A DNA stretch of 64,000 nucleotides from a virus. A program made the position numbers and the translations under genes. The notes under the pieces were generated by a model. That model worked only from the letters and a program-made list of their open reading frames with translations, was not told the DNA's origin and ran no database searches. Below, piece by piece: positions 12,603-36,067 of the stretch. The stretch covers positions 16,389 to 80,388 of the IMG/VR virus record IMGVR_UViG_3300046168_000085. One strand, given 5' to 3'. The first letter of the stretch is position 1. Every line of letters begins with the position of its first letter.

Positions 12603-13595
12603 TTACAGAAAATATATACGAACTTTGTCGTTAATGTTTAGTTGTAATTTTTTTATGCTTTCTGCATCTACATGGATTTCTTGATTATCCCAATATTCTG
12701 CTTTTCCACGACAACAACGAAATGGTTCGTATGTTGCAATTAAAGTATCTTTTGGGTCTTCCACGAAATTCCCTGTTAATTTACCCACCTTGCTTCTTTT
12801 AATCGCACGAATGTTTTCAGTTTCACACGAATAAGTTGGTCCTGCTTCAAAAATATCAATCTCTCCGTTGAACTTGAAGTTCTGTTTCTGTAACATTCCC
12901 TTTGCAGGTTCCGTATTTTTGTGGACTTTACCAAGAACATCACGAACGTGTTTCGGAAGAAGATTAACGTAAATAGGATGACTCGGCATAAGGTCTTCTA
13001 TAAACTGCTTGTTTTTCATACTAAGATAATCTGCATTGGTATAATCTATCTTTAGAAAATGCTTCATACAATATTCGTAAAATGGTGAATGACCTCTTGT
13101 TGTTACAACACCACGCATTTCTGCGATTACTTCATTTTCAAAACGATCAAGATATTCTGCAATAAAAAGAAATCGTGAATAACTCAACAACTTTCCGTTT
13201 CCTTTTCTTGCATTTGGAAGCAGATAAAGAGTTCCAATTTCAGTAGGACCGGAATGCTTTTTATCTAAACGCAATACTTCGTTTGAAGTTTTGATTTTAA
13301 GTTCCTTATTTTCGTGGACTTCAGTATCTGTTACATATGTGTAGAAAGGTTCAAATCCACCAACTTTGCTGATGATACCGCAGATGCCTACTAACTCGTT
13401 GTTGTTTTCCATAACAAACAAATAACTTTCACCTTCAGGAGAATCCACCGATTTCTCAAATGAATATAATGTATGCTCAAGTCGTTTTTGAAGCAGAGAT
13501 TTATCGTTCTGCAAAGTTGTTATACCAGTTCCTGCTTTTTTTGCAAGTTTTTGCAGTCCACTTAAATCATTCTTATTTATCTGCCGAACGATCAT
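12603..13595 (-). CDS. astA: Arginine N-succinyltransferase AstA
   Basis: First enzyme of the AST pathway: arginine + succinyl-CoA gives N2-succinylarginine. The 330-residue product follows AstA along its length: an N-terminal GNAT-like half with F-V-M-E-N-N-N-E-L-V-G-I-C-G, then G-T-L-Y-L-L-P-N, S-R-F-L-F-I-A, V-I-A-E-M-R-G-V, L-M-P-S-H-P-I-Y and D-I-F-E-A-G-P-T. The last matches the family's D-I-F-D-G-G-P-T. ATG at 13595 is preferred to the TTG at 13601. The gene overlaps the end of the aminotransferase gene by 23 bp, indicating one operon. Confidence 0.95.
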   Translation of the reverse strand: MIVRQINKNDLSGLQKLAKKAGTGITTLQNDKSLLQKRLEHTLYSFEKSVDSPEGESYLFVMENNNELVGICGIISKVGGFEPFYTYVTDTEVHENKELKIKTSNEVLRLDKKHSGPTEIGTLYLLPNARKGNGKLLSYSRFLFIAEYLDRFENEVIAEMRGVVTTRGHSPFYEYCMKHFLKIDYTNADYLSMKNKQFIEDLMPSHPIYVNLLPKHVRDVLGKVHKNTEPAKGMLQKQNFKFNGEIDIFEAGPTYSCETENIRAIKRSKVGKLTGNFVEDPKDTLIATYEPFRCCRGKAEYWDNQEIHVDAESIKKLQLNINDKVRIYFL

Positions 13596-14955
13596 AATCA
13601 AACTGAATTAAGGTATCAAGAGTAATTTTAACAACTTCATCAATATCTTTTTTACTCATTACAGGTGTCGGAAAAAGAAAACGAACCTTCGTTGGATTTT
13701 TTCCTGCAATGAACGAAATCACTCCGTTTTTAAATAATTCGTGGACAAACTTCATTGTGACATCAGGAGACCCATCAAACACTTGAAATGCAAACATTGC
13801 ACCGATACCTCCAATGTTTGAAACAAACTCAGAGTTTTTTAATCCACTTTCAAACAAATTAAAGTATTTGTGATTCTTGCCGATTTTATACAACTCAGGA
13901 CCTGTTTTGCTTTTCTTGTCGTAAAACTTACCTTTAAGAATCTCTGTCAATACTACATCGGCTGCGAACAACGATGAAGTTGCTCCTGTGAAAGTTTGCG
14001 ACACCAACCCTGGTCTTGGTTTGACATCTTCTTTGAAAATCGTTGCACATACTTGTGTGCTTTTTCCTACACAAACCAAATCAACATATTCATCTAATTC
14101 AAACATTTGAAATGCGAATGGTTTATATGTTCTTGCAAAACTTTGTACTTCATCTACAAAGAAAAGTATATCGTGCTTTTTAAGACATTTTGCAATATCT
14201 TGAAGAATCTTTTTATCTCCAACATTGAATCCACCTTCTCCTTGAATAAGTTCTGCAACCATACACGAATGTTTACCAGGATGTCTTGCAATATGCTTTT
14301 CAAGATGCTTTACTGCTGATTCTGCATTAAACGGAATATAATCAACTTTAAGTGTATCAGGTAATCCTTCACGATAATATGGTTTATCTGTGATTTGTGA
14401 AACACCTGTTGTTCTTCCGTGGAAACAATTTGCAAATGCAAGAATACGATCAGCAGGAAACTTTTTTTGAAATGCCATCTTGATTCCGTTTTCAACTGCC
14501 ATTGCTCCACTTGTTGTTAAAAATACATGATCAAGTTTTGCTCCATGTAAATTTGCAACTTGTTTGAACTTTTCCATTACAACCAACGATTCTTCGTTTT
14601 GCTGAAGATTGCCTTGCATAACACAATCACTAAACGCAGAATTTAATGATGCTTCTACAATCTTCTCGTTTCCGTGTCCAAAATAATTTACACCAATTCC
14701 ACCTATCATGTCGTATTTAACTGATCCATCGGTAAGTTCTACTAATGCACCATATCCTTTTCCTGTTCCGACATAAGGAAATACCAATCCACCACCACGA
14801 ACATTTTTAAATCGTTCTAGTAGTTCTTCGGTGATTTCTTTAGGTGCAGTTGGTGGTGTGTGTTTTAGTTTTTTTACGGACTTAATATATTCTTTTAATA
14901 AAATTTGTTTTGCATCATTTGTTGTTTTGTCTGTAAAAAAATCGTTGTACCACAT
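13573..14955 (-). CDS. Class III aminotransferase, probable succinylornithine transaminase role
   Basis: A 460-residue PLP enzyme. Class III features visible: S-G-A-M-A-V-E-N-G-I-K around 149-159 (phosphate binding), C-F-H-G-R near 177, the F-V-D-E-V-Q motif with Asp268, and the PLP lysine in V-G-K-S-T at Lys298. It is longer than AstC (about 406 aa) and also resembles lysine 6-transaminases. Its position between astA and the M20 hydrolase/astD suggests it converts succinylornithine to succinylglutamate semialdehyde. A strong AAAGGAG ribosome site precedes the ATG. Substrate is inferred from context; lysine or ornithine is the main alternative. Confidence 0.85.
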   Translation of the reverse strand: MWYNDFFTDKTTNDAKQILLKEYIKSVKKLKHTPPTAPKEITEELLERFKNVRGGGLVFPYVGTGKGYGALVELTDGSVKYDMIGGIGVNYFGHGNEKIVEASLNSAFSDCVMQGNLQQNEESLVVMEKFKQVANLHGAKLDHVFLTTSGAMAVENGIKMAFQKKFPADRILAFANCFHGRTTGVSQITDKPYYREGLPDTLKVDYIPFNAESAVKHLEKHIARHPGKHSCMVAELIQGEGGFNVGDKKILQDIAKCLKKHDILFFVDEVQSFARTYKPFAFQMFELDEYVDLVCVGKSTQVCATIFKEDVKPRPGLVSQTFTGATSSLFAADVVLTEILKGKFYDKKSKTGPELYKIGKNHKYFNLFESGLKNSEFVSNIGGIGAMFAFQVFDGSPDVTMKFVHELFKNGVISFIAGKNPTKVRFLFPTPVMSKKDIDEVVKITLDTLIQFDYDRSADK

Positions 14956-14959
14956 AATA

Positions 14960-16150
14960 TTACTCCTTTGTTATATTATATAAATATAACGCAGATAACT
15001 TTGTTCGTTCTTTTAACGAATCAATGAAAATCATTTCATCACGACTATGCATTCCATTTCCAACAGGACCAAGTGAATCCATATTAGGCAATCCATATCC
15101 GTTTAGTTTGTTTCCATCACTTGCTCCTCCACTCATAATCAACTTTAGTTTGTTCATTCCAAGTTGCTTCGCACATTTTTGAAGATGCTCGGTTATTTTC
15201 TTTGCTTCTTTGGTGTATGGTTTTGGAGGACTTGTAAATTTTCCGTGAAGTTCTGTACCTGGATACTTCTTACGCATATCACGATAAAAATTTTGCAGAC
15301 GATGTTCAAACTCAGTTCTTTGTTTTTTGGTGACAACTCTGCAATTGAATCTGCATATTGCTAAATCAGGAACAACATTTGACGGACCACCTCCTTCTAC
15401 TTTACCTAAATTGATCGTCATTCCTTCATTGATTGTCATCATAGTCTTTGACCAATTTATGAAATCAGCAACTCCGTAAAACGCATTTAATCCATCGTGA
15501 AAGCAACGGCCTGCGTGTGCAGATACTCCTCGGAATACCATTGTATAACTTCCTACTCCTTTACGTGATTTAACGATGCTTCCGTCAGGTAACGCAGGTT
15601 CATACAACAATCCAATATCATTGTTTCTTGCGGAAGTTTCTAAATAAGAAGAAGATGCAATGCTTCCAACTTCCTCATCTGGTAAAATTAATACTTCCCA
15701 ACCAACTTTATTTTTAATATCACTATTTTCGTATGCAAGCAAAGCATACAACATAGTCATTAAACCACCTTTCATATCAAGTACTCCAGGACCCATCATT
15801 TTGTTTCCGTTTATTGTAACTTTCTGAAAATCATGGTCTTTCGGATATACGGTGTCATAATGTCCACACAATAAAATTCGTGTTTCAGCAGTTTGTCGTT
15901 TACGCAAACGAAGAACTTTTCCGTGATTTAATTGTTTTATTTCTCCGTTGGAATTTATTGAATCAATTGGAGATAACTCGTATTGATTAATTTCATCTGG
16001 TTCAAGTTCTGAAAACATTTCTTGAAGTTGATCAATTGCGACATCAAGATTTTTTAAATTATAGGTATGAGTATTAAGATTTGAAAACGACTCAAGACGA
16101 TCAAGCATTTCATCAAACCTATCGTCTATTAAACTTAGGTAGTTGTTCAT
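14960..16150 (-). CDS. M20-family metallohydrolase in the AstE position
   Basis: A 396-residue zinc hydrolase of the ArgE/DapE/carboxypeptidase G2 group. Metal-site motifs are intact: C-G-H-Y-D-T-V-Y-P (about 95-103), G-P-G-V-L-D-M-K-G-G (bridging Asp) and L-P-D-E-E-V-G-S (catalytic Glu), with a later S-G-G-A-S-D-G-N and G-M-H-S motif supplying the last His ligand. It lies between the aminotransferase and astD where astE is usually found; no AstE is present. The most economical role is hydrolysis of succinylglutamate to glutamate and succinate. ATG at 16150; the frame extends upstream to a TTG at 16165. Confidence 0.85.
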   Translation of the reverse strand: MNNYLSLIDDRFDEMLDRLESFSNLNTHTYNLKNLDVAIDQLQEMFSELEPDEINQYELSPIDSINSNGEIKQLNHGKVLRLRKRQTAETRILLCGHYDTVYPKDHDFQKVTINGNKMMGPGVLDMKGGLMTMLYALLAYENSDIKNKVGWEVLILPDEEVGSIASSSYLETSARNNDIGLLYEPALPDGSIVKSRKGVGSYTMVFRGVSAHAGRCFHDGLNAFYGVADFINWSKTMMTINEGMTINLGKVEGGGPSNVVPDLAICRFNCRVVTKKQRTEFEHRLQNFYRDMRKKYPGTELHGKFTSPPKPYTKEAKKITEHLQKCAKQLGMNKLKLIMSGGASDGNKLNGYGLPNMDSLGPVGNGMHSRDEMIFIDSLKERTKLSALYLYNITKE

Positions 16151-16167
16151 ACCTATAAGTATCAAAC

Positions 16168-17539
16168 TTACAGAGTAATACCAGGTAGCAGTTTGCTTGG
16201 AAGTTCAGGAACTTCAGTAAGATGTAAGGCAGTTGGGTGGCCGCAATGTTCAATAGTTGTATAACCACTTGGACGATTGCAACCACTCCAACCCATCCCA
16301 CCGAAAGGAACAACACTTGCACAACCCGTGGTAGGACGATTCCAATTTACTATTCCCGTTTTGAGTTCTGCTTCTGCTTTCCAAAATAAATTCTTGTTCT
16401 TGGTGATGACACCTGATACTAATCCGTACTTGGTGTCGTTTGCAATTTCTATTGCGTGTTCAAAAGTATTACTGCGAATAACTTGAAGCAACGGACCAAA
16501 ATATTCTTCGTCTGGTAAATTCTTTATATCAGTAACATCAATGATACCAGGTTCAACTAATCTACTTGATGTTCCATTAATTTGTTTAAATTCTTTTAAT
16601 ATAGTTCCACCTAAACTTACCAAATGTTTTTGAGCATCTAAAATTCCGTTGACTGCATTCACCGAAATCATTGGTCCCATAAAGGTTCTGGAGTCATCAG
16701 TATATTCTCCGATAACAAGTTTATCAGCTGCATCAATTAAATTACGAATTATACGATCACCTTCACACGCAGTTAATCCTTTGTTAACAATCAATCTTCG
16801 TGTACAAGTGCATCTCTGACCAGTAGAAATAAATGCAGATTGAAGAAGAATGTTTGTAGCAGTATTAAGACCACCTGCTTCTTCAACAATTGTTGCATTG
16901 TTTCCACCCATTTCCAATGCGACAATCTTTTCTGGGATAATCACTTAATGCTTTGTAAATGCTATGACCAACTTTTGTACTTCCTGTAAAAAACACTCCG
17001 TCTAACAACGAATTATCAATTACATCTGCTCCACTTCCTTCGCATAAAATTACCACGTCTTTTGGTATTCCTGCTTGATGTAAAAGTTCCACCATTTTTC
17101 GTCCTGTTTCAGGAGTCAATGAACTTGGTTTAAATACAACAGAATTCCCTGCGAGAAGCAAAGGAACGATGTGTCCGTTTGGAAGATGACCAGGAAAGTT
17201 GAATGGACCAATAACTGCAAAAACACCGAATGGTTTGAATCGTGCTTGTATTCCCATATCAGCATGAACTGATCGTAACGCATTAAGACGATCATTGTAA
17301 GATTCAAATGTTACATCAATTTTTCCGACCATTGCTCCAACTTCAGATTTGGAATCCCATAAAGGTTTTCCGTGTTCTTTTGATATGGTCTCGGCGATTA
17401 TATCAGAATTTGCTTCTAATAACTTTTTGTATTTTCTAAGAATACTTTTACGATGCTGAATTGTAGTTTTTCTCCAACTATCAAATCCTAGTTTGGCACT
17501 CTTGAATTTATCATTTATTTCGTTTTTGCTAAGTGCCAT
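16168..17539 (-). CDS. astD: Succinylglutamate semialdehyde dehydrogenase AstD (frame broken once)
   Basis: NAD-dependent aldehyde dehydrogenase, fourth AST step. N-terminal 218 residues: G-P-F-N-F-P-G-H-L-P-N-G-H (AstD-typical), F-K-P-S nucleotide site and F-F-T-G-S-T-K-V-G. The second frame gives L-E-M-G-G-N-N (general base Glu), G-Q-R-C-T-C-T-R-R-L (catalytic Cys) and F-G-P-L-L-Q-V. Deleting one base from the GGG at 16934-16936 joins them into about 455 aa. The start ATG overlaps the DUF1338 stop as TAATG. E. coli AstD is 492 aa; here the C-terminus is slightly shorter. Confidence 0.93.
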
Positions 17540-18334
17540 TACTTATTATCCGTACTTTCAAAAATTTTATCGGCAGAACCTGCAATAAATCCGTCAAAAT
17601 TATTATGACGCAATGCAAATTCATAATAGCATCCAGGAATTTCAAATAATTGTCCCTCCTCTGAATCAAACTCAACGGATACATTTTCTGCCATAATACT
17701 TGATTGCTCTAGTCCTTGTTTAACTGAACCTTTTATTTCACCACCTGAATCATTTATTCTATATCCGTTTTCTTTCAAATATGAATTTACCTGTCCAAGA
17801 TTTTCAAACGAAGAACAATCTGTGACACTTATTGTAAAATGATTAACGATAAAACCAAATGTGGCCACCCAAAGCTGCATACTCACTTTCTTCTTTTAAA
17901 AAGTCATAAGTTTCTTTTGTAATCATGCCCCACGGAGTTCCACAATTACAGAAATCAAAAGCATCTAGTTGCTCGTTGGATATTTGGTTAACTAATCTGT
18001 CAATCGTATCTTGTAATTCTTGTGAAAATTCTTCTAATCTTAGTTCACTAATAAATACCCGTGTCAAATCATCATCAGAATGTAAATAATATGTTGCATC
18101 GAGTTTCTTTTTTTCAAATGCTAAGTCTTCAACTTCTGAATATCCACTCTTTACAAAAGATTTGGCAAGAACACTACGATTAATACGTGGATGATTGAAT
18201 GTTCTTAATGCAATATGATCATTCTTTACCGAAGTTCCTTCGTGTTGCTCAATGAGTTTTTTTACTTTAACAACTTGCGGATTTACACGTGAATACATAC
18301 TCCACATATCATCAAACAATTCTCGTATATTCAT
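17539..18334 (-). CDS. DUF1338 protein (2-oxoadipate dioxygenase/decarboxylase-like, frame broken)
   Basis: The two frames together give about 264 aa. The first contains D-H-I-A-L-R-T-F (metal-binding His of the vicinal-oxygen-chelate-like fold); the second contains V-N-H-F-T-I-S-V and then E-I-P-G-C-Y-Y-E-F-A-L-R-H. These are the conserved blocks of DUF1338, whose characterised members (HglS) are Fe(II) enzymes turning 2-oxoadipate into 2-hydroxyglutarate. The frame breaks near 17850-17860. It heads the AST module and its stop overlaps the astD start. Whether it works in arginine or lysine breakdown is open: DUF1338 plus a lysine-like transaminase would fit a lysine route too. Confidence 0.78.
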
Positions 18335-19703: not shown

Positions 19704-20234
19704 TTAATTTGGTAGGATCAAACCATCAGTTGACGGTATATCAACCACTCGTTCTTCGGGATCAGTTTTTGGTTCGTCTGCACTGAGCCTTGATATACGA
19801 GTTCTCCAGTCTGCGTCTTCTCCGTTGTATTCATCGATAATATCACGAAGATGTTCAAGGTAATCACTTGGCCAGGAATTATAGTCAACTGATGTTTCTG
19901 TAATTGGGAATGGTTGCATTGGTTTATCTGCAAATAAATCTATATCATTTTCAGTGTACATAGTGTTTGCAAAATTTTCATCTAACTTTCCGAATACATC
20001 TTCGTATCTATCTTGTAAATAATTCATTTTTTTATCATACTCATAATTTACATCAATGTAAATACTTGTTGTATTGTCCGTGCAACTTTCTGTTTCAAAA
20101 TTTTCAGGTTCATATCCAGGAGCATACTCAAGGTGAAGACCAGTTTCGTCAATAGCCCACCACTCAGTCCATTCCGGGCAAGAAAGTATCTCGTTCGGTT
20201 GGTTCATTTCAAAAATTAGATCATCCATTGTCAT
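19704..20234 (-). CDS. Acidic hypothetical protein (176 aa)
   Basis: A strongly acidic protein with a W-T-E-W-W-A-I-D-E-T-G segment near the start, many Asp, Glu, Tyr and Pro, and no hydrophobic core long enough for a membrane helix. ATG at 20234 (an ATG three residues in is equally possible). The charge could mimic DNA, but nothing in the sequence shows this directly. Confidence 0.55.
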   Translation of the reverse strand: MTMDDLIFEMNQPNEILSCPEWTEWWAIDETGLHLEYAPGYEPENFETESCTDNTTSIYIDVNYEYDKKMNYLQDRYEDVFGKLDENFANTMYTENDIDLFADKPMQPFPITETSVDYNSWPSDYLEHLRDIIDEYNGEDADWRTRISRLSADEPKTDPEERVVDIPSTDGLILPN

Positions 20235-20253: not shown

Positions 20254-21723
20254 TCAACTTTTTTGCCAAACCCACACTGGTTCTCCGAAACTTCCTTCAC
20301 GTTCGTGATACTCGGTGTCCATTTTGCTATCGTCAGTATCTTCCGCAGTTCCGATTCCAAGGCAGTTTGGTCGTTTTGCCATTTCCATTCCAAAGCACTC
20401 TACATAACTTGCATTATTCTTTTTACTAAGATGCTCGTTCATTGGATCACAAATTTTTAACCACTGCTTCCCACCCTTCATACCTTTGCTTGTGGTATTT
20501 ACATCACTTATATTTACCATCAGTAACCCACCTTCTTTTAATGTTGTTAAAACATTATTTAATGCTTTGTGCAAAAAGTCTTTATTCCAACGATCAATAT
20601 TTTTATGACGAACCCAACTTTGTGTGTCATCATAACTATATCGTTCCACGGAAAAATAAGGTGGACTGGTAAATATTAAGTCAACCGAGTCTTTATATTC
20701 TGTCAAATCTGCATCTTCTGCCGGTGAAGGAATGAAATCAGTTTCTTTTTTCTTACCTAACCAGGATTCATAGAATTCTTTTTGTTTATCATATATAGGA
20801 TGATTTTCTGTCCGTGGGTCAATGCCAATATATTTTGTTGCTTTACTTGCATAAAAACCACACAATCTGTCACCCCAACCCATGCTAAAATCTAATACAA
20901 CTTGTGCATCTCTATACTTTTCTGGTTCGTTAGTTTTTTTATCCAATATTATTTTATCATCTTCATCAGTTTTATGATGAGTTGGTACATTATCTCTAAA
21001 TTTCTTTAGTAATGAATCAGGATAAAACTGATAAATTAATTTTGCGACATTGGGTTTGAATTGACTGCAAATGTATTTACGCAATCCTATACTTGTTCTT
21101 AAAGTAGATTTATCAACTTTTTCTGCTTTTAATGTAAACAAACTTCCCATTAAACTTGTCATGAATTCTTTGCTATTCCATGTACGCAAGGGTCCAGGTG
21201 ATACACTTCCATCTACACTCCAACGATTTTCTTGCTGAAAATAGTTACTTGCTTTATTACCTTTATTGTTTCTTTTTAAGATACGATCACTTAAAGGAAA
21301 TTTTTTTGAATATACAGACCTAGCAAACCAAGGAGTTTCTGTGAATAAAGAATCTTGTCTTTGTTTTTTTACTATGCTAGAACTTTTTTCGTGTTTTTCT
21401 TTTTGCTCATTCGTCATTTCAAACGATTCGTAAAAAGATGTATTTACACTCTTCGCCTCTTCCGTAGTTTCGTTTAAATCTTTGTATGTGAATTTTTCCA
21501 ATAAATGAAAATCTTTTTCTGCTTCGTATGGACAGATCTCCATATACGGAAGATCATATTGCATTAAAATTTCTGCAAGAGTTTCTTTTATATCTTCTTT
21601 GTCGTACTTCTCTTTTAATCGTGTCCAATTTACTGGATCAATTTCATAATAAGGTTTTACTAGTTTTCCCTCGGAATCTTTATATTCTTCTTTTATATAA
21701 TTTTTAAACTCTTCAATAATCAT
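20254..21723 (-). CDS. SAM-dependent DNA methyltransferase-like protein with TSPPY motif
   Basis: A 489-residue protein. The N-terminal half is helical and of unknown role. The C-terminal half is a class I methyltransferase: motif I V-L-D-F-S-M-G-W-G-D-R at about 276-286, an acidic strand end Y-I-G-I-D-P near 298-303, and catalytic motif IV F-T-S-P-P-Y-F at 351-357, the T/S-P-P-Y form typical of N4-cytosine or related amino methyltransferases. The order SAM motif before catalytic motif is the gamma/alpha-like order. No restriction partner is nearby, so it is likely an orphan enzyme for phage DNA modification or anti-restriction. Confidence 0.8.
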   Translation of the reverse strand: MIIEEFKNYIKEEYKDSEGKLVKPYYEIDPVNWTRLKEKYDKEDIKETLAEILMQYDLPYMEICPYEAEKDFHLLEKFTYKDLNETTEEAKSVNTSFYESFEMTNEQKEKHEKSSSIVKKQRQDSLFTETPWFARSVYSKKFPLSDRILKRNNKGNKASNYFQQENRWSVDGSVSPGPLRTWNSKEFMTSLMGSLFTLKAEKVDKSTLRTSIGLRKYICSQFKPNVAKLIYQFYPDSLLKKFRDNVPTHHKTDEDDKIILDKKTNEPEKYRDAQVVLDFSMGWGDRLCGFYASKATKYIGIDPRTENHPIYDKQKEFYESWLGKKKETDFIPSPAEDADLTEYKDSVDLIFTSPPYFSVERYSYDDTQSWVRHKNIDRWNKDFLHKALNNVLTTLKEGGLLMVNISDVNTTSKGMKGGKQWLKICDPMNEHLSKKNNASYVECFGMEMAKRPNCLGIGTAEDTDDSKMDTEYHEREGSFGEPVWVWQKS

Positions 21724-21767: not shown

Positions 21768-23120
21768 TTAGCACTCAGTTACATTTACTGCCAATCCACC
21801 TTTACTTGTTTCTTTGTATTTGCTTTTCATATCAGCACCAGTTGCTTTCATTGTTTTTATTACGTCATCCAATGAAATTTTTGTATCGTTTTCATTAAGC
21901 ATTGCCATACGACTTGCATTAATTGCCTTTCCAACTCCAATTGCATTTCGTTCTATACATGGTATTTGTACAAGTCCTGCAACAGGATCACAAGTTAATC
22001 CTAAATTATGCTCCATAGCAATTTCGGCCGCATTTTCTACTTGCTTTAAAGTTCCTCCTACAATTTCAGTTAATGCACCGGCTGCCATACTACAAGCAAC
22101 TCCCACTTCTCCTTGGCATCCTACTTCTGCACCTGATAAACTTGCATTCATTTTGTATAACATAGCAATTACTCCAGCCGTTAATAAAAACTTGATTTCC
22201 CAATCTTCTGATTTTTCGTGGACATACTCTTTAATATACATCATTGTTGCGGGAATAATACCAGATGCTCCGTTGGTAGGAGCAGTAACAACACGATTCA
22301 TAGCTGCGTTTTCTTCGTTAACCGCAATCGCACAAATGCTTGAATAATCAAGAAATGCTTGATTATCAAGTTCATTGTTTTTAAGAAAGTTTTCGTACAT
22401 AATCGCAGCTCTTCGTTCTACATTTATTGTACCAGGAAGCATACCTTGAGTTGTTAATCCTCTGTCTACGCATTCTTGCATTATTCTCCATATTCTGCGT
22501 AATTCTGTTTTGGTTGTTTTTTCTTTTCTGAAACACTTTTCATTTTCCAACACCACATCAGATATTTTCAAATTACGATTTTCTGCGATAGTAAATAATT
22601 CTTCCGCACAAGAAAATTCATTGGTGAGTTTTCTTTTGGAAGTTTTAACTTTATTCTTTTTTGCGTTACTTTCTGTTACCACAAAACCACCACCAATGCT
22701 ATAATACATTCTCGTAGCAACTTCTTTACTTTTTGTATAAGCATAAAACTTTATTCCATTGGGATGATACGGAAGTTTTTTCTTTTTGTTGAAAATTATA
22801 TCATTCTGCGTGAATTTAATTTTACGAATGCCACCGAGTTTTATTTCTCCGTCAAGAGAATCAACTTCATTTAATTGTTGTTGTTTTACTTGATCCGGTG
22901 CATAATTCAATAAACCGAGTTGAATTGCAATCGGAGTTCCGTGACCTTCACCTGTTAATGCAAGTGAACCAAACAACTCAATTTTGATTGAATCGACTTC
23001 ACCAAATACTTTTTTGTGTTTCAAAAAAGAAACAAACTTTCTTGATGCTTGGATAGGACCTGTGGTGTGTGAACTTGAAGGACCTATTCCAATTTTGAAA
23101 AAGTCAAGAACACTATACAT
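21768..23120 (-). CDS. sdaA: L-serine ammonia-lyase, iron-sulfur dependent
   Basis: Converts L-serine to pyruvate and ammonia. The 450-residue protein has the single-chain SdaA layout: N-terminal domain with G-I-G-P-S-S-S-H-T-T-G-P, then A-P-T-N-G-A-S-G-I-I-P-A and the C-terminal catalytic block. Cys for the 4Fe-4S cluster are visible: C-Q-G-E-V-G-V-A-C, then the pair in L-T-C-D-P-V-A-G-L-V-Q-I-P-C, spaced 11 apart as in characterised enzymes. The frame is intact and full length. The start overlaps the acyl-CoA dehydrogenase stop by one base, placing it in the same operon as the beta-oxidation genes. Confidence 0.95.
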   Translation of the reverse strand: MYSVLDFFKIGIGPSSSHTTGPIQASRKFVSFLKHKKVFGEVDSIKIELFGSLALTGEGHGTPIAIQLGLLNYAPDQVKQQQLNEVDSLDGEIKLGGIRKIKFTQNDIIFNKKKKLPYHPNGIKFYAYTKSKEVATRMYYSIGGGFVVTESNAKKNKVKTSKRKLTNEFSCAEELFTIAENRNLKISDVVLENEKCFRKEKTTKTELRRIWRIMQECVDRGLTTQGMLPGTINVERRAAIMYENFLKNNELDNQAFLDYSSICAIAVNEENAAMNRVVTAPTNGASGIIPATMMYIKEYVHEKSEDWEIKFLLTAGVIAMLYKMNASLSGAEVGCQGEVGVACSMAAGALTEIVGGTLKQVENAAEIAMEHNLGLTCDPVAGLVQIPCIERNAIGVGKAINASRMAMLNENDTKISLDDVIKTMKATGADMKSKYKETSKGGLAVNVTEC

Positions 23121-24970
23121 TATTCAAGAAACTTGAATGTACCACCTAGAATTTTCTTTGCGAAAGAATAATTCTTTTTGTCGTTATTGTTGCTCATTCC
23201 ACTAAAGTTGTTTTTGATTTTGATTTTTGCTTCACTAAAAACCACATCCATCAACTCAAGATATTCAGCTGCTTTTTCAGGATCATCTTTGATCATGCTA
23301 TCAATACGTAATGCACACGCAGATATTACAAACAACTCAGTTCCAATTTCAGTCAAACGACCAAGAAGCATTTGTTGTTTGTCTAATGAAGGACCGTATC
23401 GTGCCATTGAGTGAAATAGTTTTCTGCTTAATTTCTTGCTTGTTCTTGAAACATAAAGAAGATACTTTTTGACTGCTCCATTTACTCCCGTGGGTCCTGA
23501 ATTGAAAGTTGGTAACCATTGTTTTGGATACCAAGTTGCATAGTGTATTCCTGCTCCGATAGCTGCCTTTAAACGAACCATCAATGGAAGACGTGAATCA
23601 AGAACTGCTCCGGCTGCTTTAAGATGTGGATCAAGTGCTTCACGTGCCAAAAGCAAACGCATAATTTCACTTGAACCTTCAAAGATCATATTGATACGAC
23701 AATCACGAAGAAATCTTTCCACAGGAATTGGATCAGAACCACGATTGCGAAGTGAGTCAGCAGTTTCGTAACCACGACCACCACGTATTTGCATCGTTTC
23801 GTCTGCTACTTTCCATGCTTCTTCTGTTCCCCACATTTTACACATTGCAGATTCCACACGAATATCTGCTTTTTTACCATCCACTAAACTTGATGTAAAA
23901 AGAACGATACTTTCAGTTGCGAAATTCTTGGCCGCAATCTTAGCAATTTTATCACCAATTGCTTGGTGTTTACCAATAGCACATCCCCACTGTTCACGTG
24001 ATGAACCCCACTCACGACAAATCTTTAAGCAACTACGCATAAGTCCCACACAAGCAGCCGGTAATGTAAGACGACCTGTATTCAATGTGCTAAGTGCAAC
24101 CTTGAGTCCTTTGCCTTCTCCTGCTACCAAATTCTCCACAGGTATCTTTACATCGGTAAATCTTACAACACCATTATACAATGCTTTAAGACCCATAAAA
24201 CGACATCGAGTAACTACTTCTACACCAGGTGTATCCATATCAAGAATAAATGCCGAAATGCTTTTACGCATTTTGCCTTTAATTTCTGTATCAGGTGTTC
24301 TTGCCATTACAATAATAACACTTGCTTTTACTCCATTTGTACACCAAAGTTTTTCTCCGTTTAAAACATAATGAGTTTTATCTTCTGATAACTCTGCGTA
24401 AACCGTCATTTGTGCAGGATCACTTCCTACAGTTTCTTCAGTCAACGCAAACGCACTAATTTCTCCTTTACCAAAACGAGGAAGATGCTTTTTCTTTTGT
24501 TCGTCTGTTCCGTAAAGTAACAATGGTTGAGGAACTCCGATACTTTGATGTGCTGATACTAACGCAGTTATATTTCCGCACACTTCACCCAACTTCATAG
24601 CCGCACGTGAATAATTTGTTTGTGATAAACCACGACCACCATATTCCGTTGGAATTTTAATTGCGAATGCACCAATCTTTGCAAGTTCTTTAAATACTTC
24701 ATCAGGAATTTCACCTTCACGATCAATTGCGTCTGCATCTACATACTTGTCTAACACATCACCCAATTCATTCAAGAAAATATCTCCTTTTGCTTTGTCT
24801 TCTGCTTTTTGTTTCGGAAATGGATAAATCAAATCATAATTTGCTTCACCTGTAAACAAACCACCACTAAAACTTTTTGTTCCTTTTTTTCCTTTATCAC
24901 GTGCAGCCTCGGCTGCTTCCAAGGCATCTGCTTTACCCTTGGACATTTTTGAAGTATCTATTTCACTCAT
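23120..24970 (-). CDS. Acyl-CoA dehydrogenase (VLCAD/ACAD9-like)
   Basis: FAD-dependent first step of fatty-acid beta-oxidation: acyl-CoA to trans-2-enoyl-CoA. 616 aa, longer than short/medium-chain enzymes (about 390) because of an N-terminal helical extension and a roughly 170-residue C-terminal domain, as in very-long-chain types. Visible motifs: F-A-L-T-E-E-T-V-G-S-D around 174-184, L-W-C-T-N-G near 208-213, Q-I-R-G-G-R-G-Y near 394-401, and catalytic Glu431 in F-E-G-S-S-E-I. Intact frame. It overlaps sdaA by one base and follows fadB by 2 bp. Confidence 0.95.
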   Translation of the reverse strand: MSEIDTSKMSKGKADALEAAEAARDKGKKGTKSFSGGLFTGEANYDLIYPFPKQKAEDKAKGDIFLNELGDVLDKYVDADAIDREGEIPDEVFKELAKIGAFAIKIPTEYGGRGLSQTNYSRAAMKLGEVCGNITALVSAHQSIGVPQPLLLYGTDEQKKKHLPRFGKGEISAFALTEETVGSDPAQMTVYAELSEDKTHYVLNGEKLWCTNGVKASVIIVMARTPDTEIKGKMRKSISAFILDMDTPGVEVVTRCRFMGLKALYNGVVRFTDVKIPVENLVAGEGKGLKVALSTLNTGRLTLPAACVGLMRSCLKICREWGSSREQWGCAIGKHQAIGDKIAKIAAKNFATESIVLFTSSLVDGKKADIRVESAMCKMWGTEEAWKVADETMQIRGGRGYETADSLRNRGSDPIPVERFLRDCRINMIFEGSSEIMRLLLAREALDPHLKAAGAVLDSRLPLMVRLKAAIGAGIHYATWYPKQWLPTFNSGPTGVNGAVKKYLLYVSRTSKKLSRKLFHSMARYGPSLDKQQMLLGRLTEIGTELFVISACALRIDSMIKDDPEKAAEYLELMDVVFSEAKIKIKNNFSGMSNNNDKKNYSFAKKILGGTFKFLE

Positions 24971-24972
24971 TG

Positions 24973-27063
24973 TTATTTATCCTCGTAGAATTTTTTGTTT
25001 GTTTTTGCGTATTCAAGAAGCATATCACACGGAGTAAAGTATGCATCTTTTTTTGCTAGTTCTTGTAATTTTTGAACAACTTTTAATGCTCCTAAATTAT
25101 CAAGATACGAAATTGGTCCTCCACGAAATGGAGCCCATCCAGTTCCCATTATCATTCCAAAGTCTACATCCTTTGGACTATTTACAACTTCTTCTTGTAA
25201 ACAACGAACTGCTTCGTTAACCATAATTAAAATTAAACGATCAACAATTTCTTCATCTGCAATTTCTTGATTTATATAAGCAGATTGGATTGCTGATGTA
25301 GGTAACTTAGAACTTACACCTGTTGATTTTCCATTTGTATATTTGTAAAATCCACGACCACTTTTTTTACCTACATCTTTGTTGTCGATCATTAACTTCA
25401 AAAACTCTGATTTAGGAAAATTAGTTTCAAGACGATTCAGCAGATCATCTGCGACGTGTTGACATACATCCCCTCCTACTTCATCAATTAAACGAAACGG
25501 TCCCATTGGCATTCCAAACTTACGCAACAACTTATCGACTCGTTCAATGTCTGCACCACACGAAACCATATAAACTGCTTCAATCAAATATGGCATAAGA
25601 ATTCTATTAACAAGAAATCCAGGTGAATCTTTTACCACCACAGGAAGTTTACCTGTCTTTTTAACAAACTGAGTTGCTTTTAAAACGGTTTCCTCGGAGG
25701 TACATTCTCCACGAACCACTTCCACTAATTTCATTTTGTGAACAGGATTAAAATAATGTATTCCGACCACTCGTTCTTTATGTTGCATTTTTTCTGCGAC
25801 ATCTACAATACTAAGTGCTGATGTGTTTGTTGCAAGAATTGTATCATCACGAACAAGTGTTTCAAGTTCCGCAAATAAATCCTGCTTGATTTCAAGTTGC
25901 TCAATCGCAGCTTCTACTACTAAATCAACACTTTTCATTGGCATAGATTCGGTGATAGGTGTAACATTATCAAACTTACTTGATGCTTCTGCTTTAGTCA
26001 TCACTCGTTTGCTTACAGCTGCTGAGTACAATTTACTTATGCTTGCAATTCCTTTTGCTACAAACTCTGGTTTAATATCCTTGAGCAATACTTTGATTCC
26101 TCTTGAACTAATCCATTGTGCAATACCTGCACCCATCACTCCTGCTCCTATAACCGCAGTATTTTTTACTTTAAAGTCTTTGTCACTTTTTGTTTTCTTG
26201 CTTCGTTCTTGTAAAAAGAATATGTTCACCAAATTGTTTGCTACATCTGAAGTAAGAAGTTCTGCAAATGCTTTTTGTTCAAGTTTAAGTGATTCTTCAC
26301 GACTTACACCAAGACCTTTCACCATAACATCAATTGCTTTCAACGGAGCAGGATAAACGCCACCTGTTGTTTTAATAACATTTTTGGTTGCTTTGCTTTT
26401 TGCGATATACTTCAACGGAAAACGATTTAATAAATGAGACTTGTATTTCTTTTTTCCATTTAGTAACATTGCTTTTGCAGATGCTTCCAAATTTTCTTTG
26501 TATACCGCACGATCAATCATTCCAAGTTTAAGTGCCAACTTTGGAACAACCACTTTACCTGCTAGAATAATTCCCATTGCTCCAGGTAACCCAATCATTC
26601 TTGGTAAACGAGTTGATCCACCCCAAGCAGGAAGAATTCCAAGCATCGTTTCTGGTAAACCAATTTTAGTTGCTGAATCTAATGTTGCAACACGATGATC
26701 ACACGCAAGTGCAAGTTCATATCCACCACCCAAACACGCACCGTGAATTGCAGCCACAGTTACACACGACAAATCCTCAATACGATCAAATGTATGCTGA
26801 CCAAGTTTTACTAAATAAGAAATTCTTTCAGGTGTAGGATCATCTGCGAATGATTTCAAATCCGCACCTGCGATGAATATACTTGGTTTAGCACTTTGAA
26901 ATACCACTCCTTTGATCGTCTTACTGCTATCTTCTATAAAATCAAGATGATCATTTAATTCTGCAAACATATTTTCATCAAACACGTTAGCAATTGAATT
27001 TTCTTGATCAAATGTTATTGTAACAACATCATTTAATTGTTCTAGTTTAATTGACTTGCTCAT
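24973..27063 (-). CDS. fadB: FadB/FadJ-type multifunctional enzyme (enoyl-CoA hydratase / 3-hydroxyacyl-CoA dehydrogenase)
   Basis: Carries out steps two and three of beta-oxidation. The hydratase domain has the oxyanion/catalytic block G-A-C-L-G-G-G-Y-E-L-A-L-A-C-D and G-L-P-E-T-M-L-G, with both catalytic Glu. The dehydrogenase domain begins at A-V-I-G-A-G-V-M-G-A-G-I-A (NAD site, about residue 309), followed by G-I-H-Y-F-N-P-V catalytic His and V-K-D-S-P-G-F-L-V-N-R. Total 696 aa against about 715-729 in bacteria, intact. Adjacent to fadA (1 bp gap) and acyl-CoA dehydrogenase, as in a bacterial operon. Confidence 0.95.
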   Translation of the reverse strand: MSKSIKLEQLNDVVTITFDQENSIANVFDENMFAELNDHLDFIEDSSKTIKGVVFQSAKPSIFIAGADLKSFADDPTPERISYLVKLGQHTFDRIEDLSCVTVAAIHGACLGGGYELALACDHRVATLDSATKIGLPETMLGILPAWGGSTRLPRMIGLPGAMGIILAGKVVVPKLALKLGMIDRAVYKENLEASAKAMLLNGKKKYKSHLLNRFPLKYIAKSKATKNVIKTTGGVYPAPLKAIDVMVKGLGVSREESLKLEQKAFAELLTSDVANNLVNIFFLQERSKKTKSDKDFKVKNTAVIGAGVMGAGIAQWISSRGIKVLLKDIKPEFVAKGIASISKLYSAAVSKRVMTKAEASSKFDNVTPITESMPMKSVDLVVEAAIEQLEIKQDLFAELETLVRDDTILATNTSALSIVDVAEKMQHKERVVGIHYFNPVHKMKLVEVVRGECTSEETVLKATQFVKKTGKLPVVVKDSPGFLVNRILMPYLIEAVYMVSCGADIERVDKLLRKFGMPMGPFRLIDEVGGDVCQHVADDLLNRLETNFPKSEFLKLMIDNKDVGKKSGRGFYKYTNGKSTGVSSKLPTSAIQSAYINQEIADEEIVDRLILIMVNEAVRCLQEEVVNSPKDVDFGMIMGTGWAPFRGGPISYLDNLGALKVVQKLQELAKKDAYFTPCDMLLEYAKTNKKFYEDK

Positions 27064-27064
27064 T

Positions 27065-28312
27065 TTATTCTCTTTCCAAAATTATTGCACCACCTTGGCC
27101 ACCACCAATACAAAGTGAAATTAATGCTCGTTTACCACCACGACGTTCAAGTTCCTTCAAAGTTGTAAGTGCAATACGTGAACCACTTGAACCAACTGGA
27201 TGACCAAGAGCAATTGCTCCTCCATTGACATTCAATTTGGCAAAATCAACTTCACCCAAGTTTGTGGTTTTTTTCAGTTGCTTGCAAACCGCAAGAACTT
27301 GGGCAGCGAATGCTTCGTTGATTTCAATTAAATCAAAGTCATCAAGTTTATATCCAGTTTCTTCGCATACTTTCTGAATCGCATAAACTGGTCCTAATCC
27401 CATTCTTTCAGGGATCACATCCTGCATATGCGTATGCGGAAATTCTACCCAATGGATTCCAATTGTTTTGCTTAACTGCATTTCATCTGCAATCAACAAT
27501 GACACTGCTCCGTCTGTAATTTGCGATGCGTTGCCCGCAGTTACAGTTCCTTGTTTGCGATCAAATACAGGTTTAAGTTTTTCCAACGCACCCATACTTT
27601 GCTCACCACGAATTCCATTGTCTGCATCAACGAATGTTCCGTCTGCGAAATAAAATGGGGAAATCTCAGATGACATTTTTTCTATTGCCACAAATGCTTT
27701 CAAATGAGATTCTAATGCAAACTTATCTTGATGATATCGTGTTACTCCACTTTCTCTTGCGATCAATTCAGCAGTTTCACCCATATTCATTCCAACCGTG
27801 ATATCACTCAATCCTAATCGTAAACTGATTATAGGTGCGAAGTCTTTTGGACGGAAACTCAATATCGTATGAAGACGATCACGAAATGTTCTACACTTAC
27901 TTAACTTGGTAAATTTATCAACTGCACTTGAACGATATAAAAATGGTGCTTGTGTCATATTCTCCGTTCCCCCACTTAAATAAACACTTCCACGATCAGC
28001 ATTAATTTTATCAGATGCTTGTGTAATTGATTCAAAACCACTTGCACAATTACGATGAACCGTATAAGCAGGAACACTCTTGGGTACTCCCGATTTAAGT
28101 GAAATTACACGTGTGATGTTTGCGGTGTCTGCTGGTTGACATACACAACCCATTACACTTTCGTCAATTACATCGGGATTCAAATCCATCTTTGCAAACA
28201 ATGCTTTTGTTGCAGAAACTCCGAGGTCTGCAGCTGATGTTTTAGCAAAGGTCGTACCCATTTTACAAAAAGGAGTCCGAGTACCATCTACAAGATATAC
28301 ATTTTTTTTCAT
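27065..28312 (-). CDS. fadA: Acetyl-CoA C-acyltransferase (thiolase, FadA-like)
   Basis: Last step of beta-oxidation: thiolytic release of acetyl-CoA. 415 aa, intact. The nucleophile is Cys89 in H-R-N-C-A-S-G; N-E-A-F-A-A-Q, G-G-A-I-A-L-G-H-P-V-G-S-S-G-S-R (catalytic His) and C-I-G-G-G-Q-G (second Cys) follow in the usual order. First gene of the fadA-fadB-acyl-CoA dehydrogenase-sdaA run. It could also act as a biosynthetic or long-chain (FadI) thiolase; the neighbours favour degradation. Confidence 0.95.
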   Translation of the reverse strand: MKKNVYLVDGTRTPFCKMGTTFAKTSAADLGVSATKALFAKMDLNPDVIDESVMGCVCQPADTANITRVISLKSGVPKSVPAYTVHRNCASGFESITQASDKINADRGSVYLSGGTENMTQAPFLYRSSAVDKFTKLSKCRTFRDRLHTILSFRPKDFAPIISLRLGLSDITVGMNMGETAELIARESGVTRYHQDKFALESHLKAFVAIEKMSSEISPFYFADGTFVDADNGIRGEQSMGALEKLKPVFDRKQGTVTAGNASQITDGAVSLLIADEMQLSKTIGIHWVEFPHTHMQDVIPERMGLGPVYAIQKVCEETGYKLDDFDLIEINEAFAAQVLAVCKQLKKTTNLGEVDFAKLNVNGGAIALGHPVGSSGSRIALTTLKELERRGGKRALISLCIGGGQGGAIILERE

Positions 28313-28394
28313 AACCGTTACATTATATATATCACAATTTTATACATATCGTCAACTATATAACGAACAATATACATAAATGGTTTATATTAAT

Positions 28395-28589
28395 TTATGA
28401 AAAAAACTTTGAAAGCAAGTGAATCCATATTCCGATTGAATCCACAACCACAAAATAAAACGCAAGAGCAGCCAACCAATACATTTTTCTGCCGACAAAA
28501 AAGATGATACTTAAAAAATTAACAATCGCAAAAACAACAAATCCCCAACCAATCAATTCTGGAAAAGGAAGTATTCCTCCTCCGATCAT
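28395..28589 (-). CDS. Small membrane protein (64 aa, two to three helices)
   Basis: An almost wholly hydrophobic protein with segments at about 8-32 and 36-60 and a G-R-K-M-Y-W linker. It lies between the oxidoreductase gene and fadA. Small hydrophobic phage proteins include holins; the two-helix layout would allow a class II holin, but no endolysin is next to it and the call is only a possibility. Confidence 0.5.
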   Translation of the reverse strand: MIGGGILPFPELIGWGFVVFAIVNFLSIIFFVGRKMYWLAALAFYFVVVDSIGIWIHLLSKFFS

Positions 28590-28606: not shown

Positions 28607-29708
28607 CTATTTCAAATTGTTTGCTGTGTGTTTGCTTCTGCCATTTCTAAATCCAAGTTTATTTAACTCTTCAAGCAACACATCTGAAATTTCAATTCCG
28701 TTTTTATGAACATCAATAGATGTATTATATTCAGTTTCTCCTGGAACTAAAACTTCTTCACCTCGTTTACTTTTGCTTGATTTTATTTCACGCATCACAT
28801 CACCAACATTTTTTTTGAAATCTTTAAGTCCGCAAAGTTTTCTGGATCAATGCAAATAAAGAAATGACCAATATCATAATTTGGATTTTTGTATTTCCTT
28901 CATACAAGTCCACTTAGTTTGCTCATATAAGCACCACTTTGAAATGCCGAACACATAAGTTCTATTGCAATACTTAAACCAGAACCTTTGTGTCCTCCAT
29001 CTGGTGTCAACGCCGCAATTCCTTGTTTTAACCAACGCAATGATCTTTCAAATGTTAGATTTTGATTTTCAGAAACTATCGCACAATTAGGAACATAGTT
29101 GTCTGGTGTTTTTCTTGCCATTACTTCCAAATCACCTCTTTGATAAACTGATGTTGCACAATCAATACTAAACGGATATTTTTCATCAGATGGAAATGCT
29201 ATTGCGTATGGATTCGTACCCATCTTTGGTTCTACTCACCATGAGGAGCAACCGCAGGTCGTGCGTTTGTAAAACTCATTCCCACTAAATTATGCTGAGT
29301 TGCATAACGACTATAATAACTTGCAATTCCGTAATGTGAGGAATTTCTAACCGCAACACAACTAATTCCATGTTCTTGAGTTTTTGCAATTGCTTGGTTC
29401 ATTGCATACTTGCCAACGATTTGTCCAAGTGCATTGTGACCATCAATAGTTACACAGGCTTTGTTGTCACGAACAATCTCGGGAGTTGCATTTACATCGA
29501 TTACACCATCTTGAATTCGTTTTATATAATAACTAAGTCTGCTTAATCCGTGTGATTTAAATCCAAGTTCGTCAGCACTTAATAATACATCAGCACATAC
29601 ACTTGAATATTTGCTTGGTACTTTGTTTTTTTCAAATACCCACTTCGCAAACGCAATTGCATCTTTAAGTTTTATTTTCACTTTGCTCTTTCGATTTTCT
29701 AATTTCAC
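28607..29708 (-). CDS. Malate/L-lactate dehydrogenase family (Ldh_2) oxidoreductase, frame broken several times
   Basis: Joined frames give about 355 aa, the normal family length. Blocks in order: V-P-x-x-Y-S-S-V-C-A-D-V-L-L-S-A-D, G-F-K-S-H-G-L-S-R-L (substrate site), R-N-S-S-H-Y-G-I-A-S-Y-Y, S-F-T-N-A-R-P-A-V-A-P-H-G, then M-G-T-N-P-Y-A-I-A-F-P, G-G-H-K-G-S-G-L, and the tail N-Y-D-I-G-H-F-F-I-C-I-D-P and P-G-E. Single-base breaks lie near 29235, 28909, 28880 and 28825. The family reduces 2-oxoacids (lactate, malate, ureidoglycolate, sulfolactate) with NAD(P). Substrate unknown. The start may be the GTG at 29681 rather than the ATG at 29708. Confidence 0.85.
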
Positions 29709-30075
29709 GTGCTTTTCTGATTTTCCTACGCATATACGGTTTCAGAAAATAATGACCAATGAATCCCTTGATAGTTGGTTTACCCACTTGCACTCTTAGT
29801 TTATTTTCATAACGAGTCATTGGACAATCTAATACTCTTGAAAAGGAAATTAATATAATAAACGAACACAAAGGCAAACATACATACCACGGAAATCCAA
29901 ACGGTGTTAAACCCTGAAATGCAAGAATGAAAAATGCACTAAAGTTACCAATTACAACCACCCAATGCAATAGAACTACAATCAGTAGTTTAAGATGCCT
30001 TAAAGGATTGGTTGGCAAAAATCTAAGAAACCGTTTTTCGTCAGAAGGTTCTGTTATGTTTTCATCGTTCTCCAT
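29665..30075 (-). CDS. Membrane protein with two helices and a basic tail
   Basis: A 136-residue protein: acidic N-terminus, hydrophobic segments at about 28-55 and 62-83, then a very basic C-terminal tail (K-P-Y-M-R-R-K-I-R-K-A-R). It overlaps the start of the Ldh_2 gene by up to 44 bp, less if that gene starts at 29681. No family is recognised. Confidence 0.55.
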   Translation of the reverse strand: MENDENITEPSDEKRFLRFLPTNPLRHLKLLIVVLLHWVVVIGNFSAFFILAFQGLTPFGFPWYVCLPLCSFIILISFSRVLDCPMTRYENKLRVQVGKPTIKGFIGHYFLKPYMRRKIRKAREIRKSKEQSENKT

Positions 30076-30339: not shown

Positions 30340-31347
30340 TTAAAAATCGTCAACTAATGCAGATTCATCTTGATAATCAATAACTCTTGTTTCAAAAAAG
30401 TTCTTTTGTTTGCGAATATCAATAACTTCACTTAACCAAGGAAATGGATTGTTATCACTATCATAGCGATATTTCATATTTAGATTTTCCAATCTACGAT
30501 TAGCAATAAACTGCATATACTCAACGAACATTTCAGAATTTAATCCAAGAATACCTCTTGGTAATACATCTTGTGCATACGAAATTTCCAATTCAACTGC
30601 TTGTTTTAGAACTTCTGTCAACTCAGTTTCAAATTTGTCGGTCATTAAATCAGGATTTTGTTCTCGGATTTTATTCAACAAAGTTGTTCCAAATTTGATG
30701 TGAATACTTTCATCACGAAGTGTATATTGAATTTGCTCTGCGATACCTGGTATTTTATCACTTAGTGCGAGTAACATTGCAAATCCACTGAAAAAGAATG
30801 TTCCTTCGCATACAACCCAATATGTAAATGCGGCCTTGTACAACTCTCGTTTTCCTTCAATAGTAGATGTATCGATATTTGCTTCATTCAATCCACCTGT
30901 TACTTGTATAAGAAAATCATCTTTTGCTTTGATAGATGGAACCGTTTTATATGCTTCGTATACCTCACCTATATCCAAGTCTAAACTATCACAGATATAA
31001 ACTACAGTGTGATTGTGCAAGCACTCTTCATACATCTGTCTTGCCATATATTGTCTACATTCAGGATCAGTAATGTACTTGGATAATGTCATAAGATTGT
31101 TTGCAACCAAACTTTCACTTCCTGCAAAGAAACCAAGACATCTCTTAATAACCAAACGTTCATCTTCACTCAATGCATCATCAGGTGATGATTTCCAATT
31201 TTGAACATCTTTTGTCATCGGTACATCTGTTGGTACCCAGTTGTTTTTGACACCTTGTTCATACAGATCCCACGCCCATTTATGTTTATGAGGGAGAATT
31301 TGATTTACCCCCTCTGTTTCTTTTCCTAGTAGTTCTCCAGTTTTCAT
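30340..31347 (-). CDS. nrdB: Ribonucleotide reductase small subunit, class Ic-like (no radical tyrosine)
   Basis: 335-residue NrdB with a complete metal ligand set: Glu78, Glu108, His111, Glu181, Glu213, His216. The sequence around the second ligand pair is Y-E-E-C-L-H-N-H-T-V-V-Y-I-C-D-S-L. It closely follows the Chlamydia class Ic subunit (E-E-A-V-H-T-H-T-F-L-Y-I-C-E-S-L), and so do the following blocks and the N-F-F-E-T-R-V C-terminus. The radical Tyr position (His111 plus 4) is Val115 here and Phe127 in Chlamydia. It therefore probably uses a tyrosine-independent cofactor (Mn/Fe or Mn2). It works with NrdA at 33469-35954. Confidence 0.95.
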   Translation of the reverse strand: MKTGELLGKETEGVNQILPHKHKWAWDLYEQGVKNNWVPTDVPMTKDVQNWKSSPDDALSEDERLVIKRCLGFFAGSESLVANNLMTLSKYITDPECRQYMARQMYEECLHNHTVVYICDSLDLDIGEVYEAYKTVPSIKAKDDFLIQVTGGLNEANIDTSTIEGKRELYKAAFTYWVVCEGTFFFSGFAMLLALSDKIPGIAEQIQYTLRDESIHIKFGTTLLNKIREQNPDLMTDKFETELTEVLKQAVELEISYAQDVLPRGILGLNSEMFVEYMQFIANRRLENLNMKYRYDSDNNPFPWLSEVIDIRKQKNFFETRVIDYQDESALVDDF

Positions 31348-35954: not shown

Positions 35955-36067
35955 TTGTAACCTTTTGTTAGAATTTTATATTAACATTATAATTTAATTA
36001 TATAAATATCATTTACGAAATCTATCGTAAAAATACATACTATATATACAGAATTTTTTAACCAATA

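Follow-up and report, generated by a model that had tools for sequence, protein, structure and literature searches.

The DNA stretch analysed here, hereafter the window, is 64,000 nucleotides long and corresponds to bases 16389-80388 of the 80,388-base IMG/VR viral record IMGVR_UViG_3300046168_000085. It contains a cassette that encodes the enzymes of a fatty-acid beta-oxidation spiral and an L-serine dehydratase. This cassette is probably a selected catabolic operon of T4-like phages, which has a fad core from a Verrucomicrobiota-type bacterium and would burn host lipid and protein for phage replication. The reading is carried by the identity and order of the genes, their motifs, conservation and selection, their phage context and the origin of the fad core.

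A sequence-only reading of the window had described four beta-oxidation and serine dehydratase genes with near-zero spacing at 21768-28312, and the four open reading frames (ORFs) were found there on the minus strand (28312-21768), with spacings of 1 bp and 2 bp and then a 1-bp overlap. From 5' to 3' on this strand, the order is thiolase, FadB/J-like protein, VLCAD-like acyl-CoA dehydrogenase (ACAD) and L-serine dehydratase:

27065..28312, minus strand: acetyl-CoA C-acyltransferase (thiolase; FadI/FadA-like), fourth reaction (PF00108 E=3e-59, PF02803 E=6e-41)
24973..27063, minus strand: FadB/FadJ-like bifunctional enoyl-CoA hydratase/3-hydroxyacyl-CoA dehydrogenase, second and third reactions (ECH and HAD: PF00378, PF02737, PF00725)
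23120..24970, minus strand: VLCAD/ACAD9-like acyl-CoA dehydrogenase, first reaction (Pfam/NCBIfam; ACAD9/ACADV C-terminal domain)
21768..23120, minus strand: L-serine ammonia-lyase SdaA, single chain (TIGR00720 603 bits, above the cut-off of 345)

By Pfam and NCBIfam families, ACAD, enoyl-CoA hydratase, 3-hydroxyacyl-CoA dehydrogenase and thiolase are all encoded, and the cassette covers the four reactions of the spiral and serine deamination, as had been proposed. The nearest solved structures of the ACAD are ACAD9 and VLCAD, and the FadB/J-like protein, the alpha subunit, is of the trifunctional type by sequence comparison. The names fadA and fadB, which the sequence-only reading had used, agree with the domains and function of the proteins, but none of the FadA, FadB, FadI and FadJ NCBIfam equivalog models passes its cut-off (for example, FadJ reaches 626 of 869 bits and FadI 320 of 560 bits). 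Judged by these models, "FadA/FadB" is a functional label for homologous proteins with the same domains, which are not the named equivalogs.

The conserved block is wider than the four genes, since the Ldh_2 dehydrogenase and the DUF2784 protein share the conserved stretch:

28900..29708, minus strand: Ldh_2-family (malate/L-lactate/sulfolactate-type) dehydrogenase (PF02615), frame-shifted in the window contig
29665..30075, minus strand: DUF2784-like membrane protein (PF10861), linked to fad genes in both phage lineages described below
28395..28589, minus strand: small membrane-like protein between Ldh_2 and thiolase, kept in 7 other phage contigs (72-92%)
28313..28372, minus strand: promoter-like stretch (TTGACG, spacer of ~18, TATATA), immediately 5' of the thiolase ATG, from a 12-contig alignment

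The Ldh_2 ORF is intact in the relatives L002 and L003 (359-367 aa), and its best PDB matches are L-sulfolactate dehydrogenase 2x06 and malate dehydrogenase 3i0p. The block before the thiolase ATG is kept in 10 of the 12 aligned contigs and resembles a sigma-70 promoter; it is not among the promoters listed by a generic promoter scan, so this assignment is suggestive only. The T4 late-promoter TATAAATA has no clear enrichment.

The catalytic motifs were checked in the copies long enough to include each of them, and the Cys/His/Cys motifs of the thiolase (HRNCASG, GGAIALGHP and SLCIGGGQGGA) occur in every such phage copy. The catalytic-Glu motif IFEGSSEI of the ACAD is present, the catalytic motifs of FadB are conserved, save some variants in G003 and G005, and the Cys motifs of SdaA are present with some motif variants. 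The pairwise ratio of nonsynonymous to synonymous substitutions (dN/dS) of Ldh_2, thiolase, FadB, ACAD and SdaA is 0.07-0.19 at dS 0.4-3, slightly higher than that of the phage core genes (0.02-0.13). These ratios indicate that the cassette genes are under purifying selection and retained as functional proteins.

The enzymes had also been called intact. The families stand, but residues ~277-300 of the window thiolase are out of frame by two compensating indels, so this gene is not strictly intact in the window, while the copies of the relatives are. Numerous single-base indels occur in the window (33737-37474, 27413-27481 and 29235-29245), which make a low-accuracy assembly likely. In the window contig such indels disrupt nrdA and the gene of the replicative helicase, both of which are intact in the relatives. 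Because essential genes carry like indels and are intact in relatives, the frame breaks look like sequencing errors and not pseudogenes, and a pseudogene reading of the frame-shifted Ldh_2 is ruled out on the same grounds.

Three contigs, which are the window, G004 (57.6 kb) and G005 (36 kb), have phage genes to either side of the cassette, in line with the earlier description of its position. The far-side genes common to G004, G005 and the window comprise the methyltransferase-like gene and small proteins. The flanking genes on the two sides are:

30340..31347, minus strand: NrdB, upstream phage flank, 84-99% in 23 phage contigs
33737..35895, minus strand: NrdA, phage flank, frame-shifted in the window
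20254..21723, minus strand: DNA-methyltransferase-like protein, downstream phage flank, same position in G004 and G005
19704..20234, minus strand: conserved phage protein, downstream flank (84% and 46% in G004 and G005)

In whole-contig comparison, synteny extends from the tail genes via UvsX, SSB, exonuclease, helicase, nrdA and nrdB into the cassette. A scan with NrdB gave 28 contigs, 23 of them close (84-99%, besides the window) and every one of these from a different metagenome, and five distant (65-80%). Among the close contigs, Ldh_2 is reached by 15, thiolase by 8 and FadB by 7, while no contig runs into other genes; no cassette adjoins nrdB in the five distant ones. IMG/VR scans with FadB added seven further contigs at 67-85% identity. 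The sequence-only reading had proposed a search for the cassette in other phage contigs, and the same gene order recurs across contigs from many metagenomes, with cassette copies that are 65-95% identical and phage flanks that diverge in parallel. It had also named a GC break at the borders as a reason to reject the cassette. GC is 0.36-0.38 in the cassette and 0.32-0.37 in its surroundings, GC skew and strand are continuous, and there is no composition break. The cassette is genuinely viral and conserved across the phage family. As in auxiliary metabolic genes (AMGs), it lies in a viral genome with viral flanks on both sides, has host-derived homology and is retained by selection. A secreted trypsin-like protease (window 32656-33386, split; 333-342 aa in relatives) is conserved between nrdA and nrdB.

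Among isolated phages in INPHARED, the matches to FadB, ACAD and thiolase all lie below 60% identity, and Microcystis phage MaAM05 has one ACAD. Most of the INPHARED fad matches are apparently bacterial DNA deposited under phage names, among them the UNVERIFIED faecal scaffold MT835486, Salmonella whole-genome shotgun (WGS) records and the 'Acinetobacter phage MD-2021a' records of 200-380 kb. These last and several OR84-85xxxx records seem to be mostly bacterial, with fad, paa and ast genes.

Several contigs of the family end exactly at the cassette. Four related contigs, including those of 151.8, 161.2 and 94.6 kb, finish with the final base of the DUF2784 stop codon, and three finish with the base that precedes the thiolase ATG; the contigs with ends at gene boundaries are L112, L114, L118, L121, L108, L113 and L119. 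L115 shares 11,683 bp with the 151.8-kb contig at 100% identity and then continues into Ldh_2; L002 shares 6,594 bp with the same contig, also at 100%, and continues via Ldh_2, thiolase and FadB into ACAD. For the 161-kb contig the match is L120, with 9,438 bp at 100% identity, and L120 continues to FadB. CheckV-style trimming treats flanking microbial-type genes as host (PMC8116208), and the ends at gene boundaries fit such trimming; a tool of this kind may have made these cuts.

The carriers of the cassette are large T4-like myoviruses of >161 kb. The structural genes of the window include tail sheath, tube, baseplate hub and tape measure, the first of which indicates a contractile tail:

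62548..63916, minus strand: tail sheath in two frames (phrog_23, phrog_10581), contractile-tail phage

The relative G018 has terminase, portal, T4-type DNA polymerase, clamp loader, baseplate wedge and RIIA. The features of a T4-like myovirus, which are contractile tail, T4-type DNA polymerase, clamp loader, UvsX, gp32, terminase, portal and RIIA, are all found, partly in G018. The G018 terminase is at most 53% identical to those of isolated phages (Microcystis phage Mel-JY01 and Flavobacterium phage immuto). The window's contig also encodes a large DUF2828/DUF7788 protein (phrog_850 'RNA-binding protein', L004:10752-12299).

A FadB tree of 93 rows unites the phages in a single clade (SH-aLRT 100), which is nested in a clade of Verrucomicrobiota/Kiritimatiellota (100). 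The ACAD and thiolase trees also place the phage copies in Verrucomicrobiota, and the nearest genome for ACAD, within the limited bacterial sampling of that tree, is G070 (60% identity). In bacterial contigs, a query with a single FadB gave no match and an alignment query found matches. The thiolase-FadB-ACAD order occurs in Verrucomicrobiota genomes as well, at 44-60% identity to the phage, and the best bacterial match to the phage cassette proteins is only 48-60%. Bacterial trees with matching synteny had been named as grounds for rejection; the nesting of the fad genes and the shared three-gene order were indeed found, but the identity is 44-60% and phage genes flank both sides. The low identity, the phage flanks of three contigs and the recurrence of the gene order across many metagenomes point to a donor and not to contamination, and by these trees the fad core (thiolase, FadB/J-like protein and VLCAD-like ACAD) is taken from a Verrucomicrobiota-type bacterium. 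G018 has full-length DnaK and DnaJ (L134:11068-18666), and the DnaK of G014 is 90% identical to its own. The G018 DnaK is 69-70% identical to Verrucomicrobiota and at most 64% in the sampled Planctomycetota, and the G018/G014 pair nests within Verrucomicrobiota, also with limited bacterial sampling. SdaA is ~52% and Ldh_2 ~43% identical to Verrucomicrobiota. The donor bacterium probably belongs to the host lineage.

A second phage lineage has the fad operon. A thiolase alignment scan found G528 (IMGVR_UViG_3300032006_002703; 107 kb), in which thiolase, FadB, ACAD and DUF2784 are 51, 46, 65 and 59% identical to the first family, with DUF2784 directly after ACAD. The flanks of the operon include UvsX-like, DnaB-like, primase and exonuclease genes at one end and NrdA/NrdB at the other. 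G528 also has a terminase, its DNA polymerase belongs to a different family than that of the first phages, and it has no SdaA or AST matches. In the trees, the ACAD of G528 clusters with that of the first phage family (support 100), while the placement of its FadB and thiolase is unsettled. The operon would have been gained either by phage-to-phage transfer or from related bacteria. A viral scan for further phages of this type returned G528 itself only. A DUF1501 protein is encoded near its fad operon (L278:6236-7519).

The Ldh_2/DUF2784 part, the family-wide conservation and an AST arginine pathway in the window lie beyond the scope of the sequence-only reading. The further catabolic genes of the window are:

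16168..17539, minus strand: AstD succinylglutamate-semialdehyde dehydrogenase in two frames (TIGR03240 2e-86 and 6e-64 for the halves)
14960..16165, minus strand: M20 hydrolase (PRK07338), candidate desuccinylase replacing AstE (420 bits, cut-off 357)
13573..14955, minus strand: class-III aminotransferase, candidate AstC (PF00202; ArgD/AstC-like subfamily 1e-43)
12603..13601, minus strand: AstA arginine N-succinyltransferase (PF04958 1e-110; TIGR03243 above cut-off)
10705..11977, minus strand: AstB succinylarginine dihydrolase in two frames (PF04996 1e-113; C-terminal piece TIGR03241 8e-14)
11992..12300, minus strand: Mpo1-like 2-hydroxy-fatty-acid dioxygenase (PF06127 2e-24)
17843..18334, minus strand: fragment of HGLS 2-oxoadipate dioxygenase/decarboxylase (PF07063 1e-9)

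AstA, AstB and AstD are thus identified, AstC is represented by an AstC-like protein only, and AstE was not seen in the cluster, which has the M20 hydrolase. AstA occurs in 6 of 376 Verrucomicrobiota genomes, and the M20 and AstD genes adjoin it in 4 of those 6. The window shares AstA, AstB and AstD, by family models, and the AstC-like transaminase with the known astCADBE pathway, and differs from it by the M20 hydrolase in place of AstE, as in the Verrucomicrobiota loci. G018 has two tandem glutamate dehydrogenase genes (L134:12602-15347), for which NADP-type models score best.

Expression, substrate range, direction of flux and benefit to the phage are deduced from these genes as follows. 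A host synthetase would supply acyl-CoA from membrane or storage lipid during infection, and the phage enzymes would run the entire spiral to acetyl-CoA, NADH and ETF-borne electrons, with ETF/ETF-QO as the acceptor for ACAD presumably from the host. SdaA would convert serine to pyruvate and ammonia, the Ldh_2 enzyme would oxidise malate, lactate or another 2-hydroxy acid, the AST genes of the window phage would convert arginine to glutamate and succinate, and the relative G018 may add the step of its two glutamate dehydrogenases. Phage replication would in this way draw tricarboxylic acid (TCA) cycle fuel, reducing power and ammonia from host lipid and protein.

This role in energy and carbon supply is the best reading of the cassette, and the following points weigh against it. 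No acyl-CoA synthetase (AMP-binding, PF00501) matched in the 16 viral contigs searched, all of them possibly fragments; the sequence-only reading had already noted this absence, and acyl-CoA would thus be host-supplied. The substrate or origin of Ldh_2 and SdaA is less certain. The assignment of the host to Verrucomicrobiota is deduced from the FadB, ACAD, thiolase and DnaK genes only. AstA had no close relative in a viral scan, so that the AST genes are seen in the window contig alone.

The operon may instead remodel or dismantle host membrane lipid, in lysis, superinfection control or acyl-CoA detoxification or signalling, with energy being incidental. In favour of this role, long-chain lipid is suggested by the VLCAD type of the ACAD and by the DUF2784 and small membrane proteins that are linked to the cassette, and an Mpo1-like dioxygenase is encoded nearby. 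A part in lipid metabolism is not evident, however, for SdaA, Ldh_2, AST and glutamate dehydrogenase, which are in keeping with catabolism in general, and the explanation is unlikely. Anabolic action by reverse beta-oxidation, or action on special acyl-CoAs (dicarboxylic, branched or aromatic), is slightly less likely again. Thiolase and FadB are reversible, the ACAD substrate is not readable from sequence alone and no fad equivalog model reaches its cut-off, but the ACAD is of VLCAD/ACAD9 type, the alpha subunit is of trifunctional type and none of the annotated proteins was recognised as an enoyl-CoA reductase. The chance is just as low that the genes chiefly supply nitrogen and biosynthetic carbon (ammonia, glutamate and pyruvate) with beta-oxidation as a side supply: SdaA, AST and glutamate dehydrogenase, with its NADP-type scores, would yield ammonia and glutamate, but fad genes make up three of the four cassette genes and are retained by both phage lineages, of which G528 has no match to SdaA or AST. 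An assembly chimera or host contamination, in which a bacterial fad operon was misjoined to a phage contig, has a negligible chance: the enzymes are bacterial-type and the fad core nests in Verrucomicrobiota with the same operon order, but the nrdB-side junction is repeated in 15 contigs of different metagenomes and both sides in three, the copies diverge in step with their flanks, with no GC or strand break and distant best bacterial matches, and the 100%-identical contig pairs span the junction, so this explanation is ruled out.

The catabolic operon of these phages resembles several known systems. The Verrucomicrobiota/Kiritimatiellota operon (L189-L192, L194, L006 and L007) has the same three genes, order and short spacing, and the phage copies nest among its members; it differs by its 44-60% identity and its location in bacterial genomes, where it was not found together with SdaA or Ldh_2. 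FadBA/FadJI with FadE and the human mitochondrial trifunctional protein with VLCAD/ACAD9 share the four reactions, the subunit architecture and, by sequence, the ACAD type, whereas the phage operon is phage-borne, has the order thiolase-alpha-ACAD and does not reach the equivalog cut-offs. Viral AMGs, which are already known as such, likewise redirect host energy metabolism, and here every step lies in one operon. Giant viruses have some lipid genes, and enoyl-CoA hydratase and beta-ketothiolase were undetected in any of them in a 2022 review (PMC9270025); in coastal viromes the occurrence of fadB/fadL AMGs was counted, with no operon (PMC7472104). In the searchable open-licence literature no report was found of a full phage beta-oxidation operon or combined AMG set, in agreement with the view that a whole degradative spiral is exceptional for a phage, and none of AST genes in phages. 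To our knowledge, a complete phage fatty-acid degradation operon, maintained by selection across a divergent family and present in an unrelated phage, is new.

A wider picture, to which we give somewhat less than an even chance, is that widespread large phages have a full self-digestion programme for lipid and for serine, arginine and glutamate, that unrelated phages gained or exchanged the fad operon and that trimming software hides it as 'host'. Host-trimming may strip such cassettes from viral databases, and catabolic AMGs may be under-counted. The operon leads to a testable claim, which is that some phages fuel their replication with the lipid and amino acids of the host; if true, this would have consequences for natural carbon and nitrogen release.
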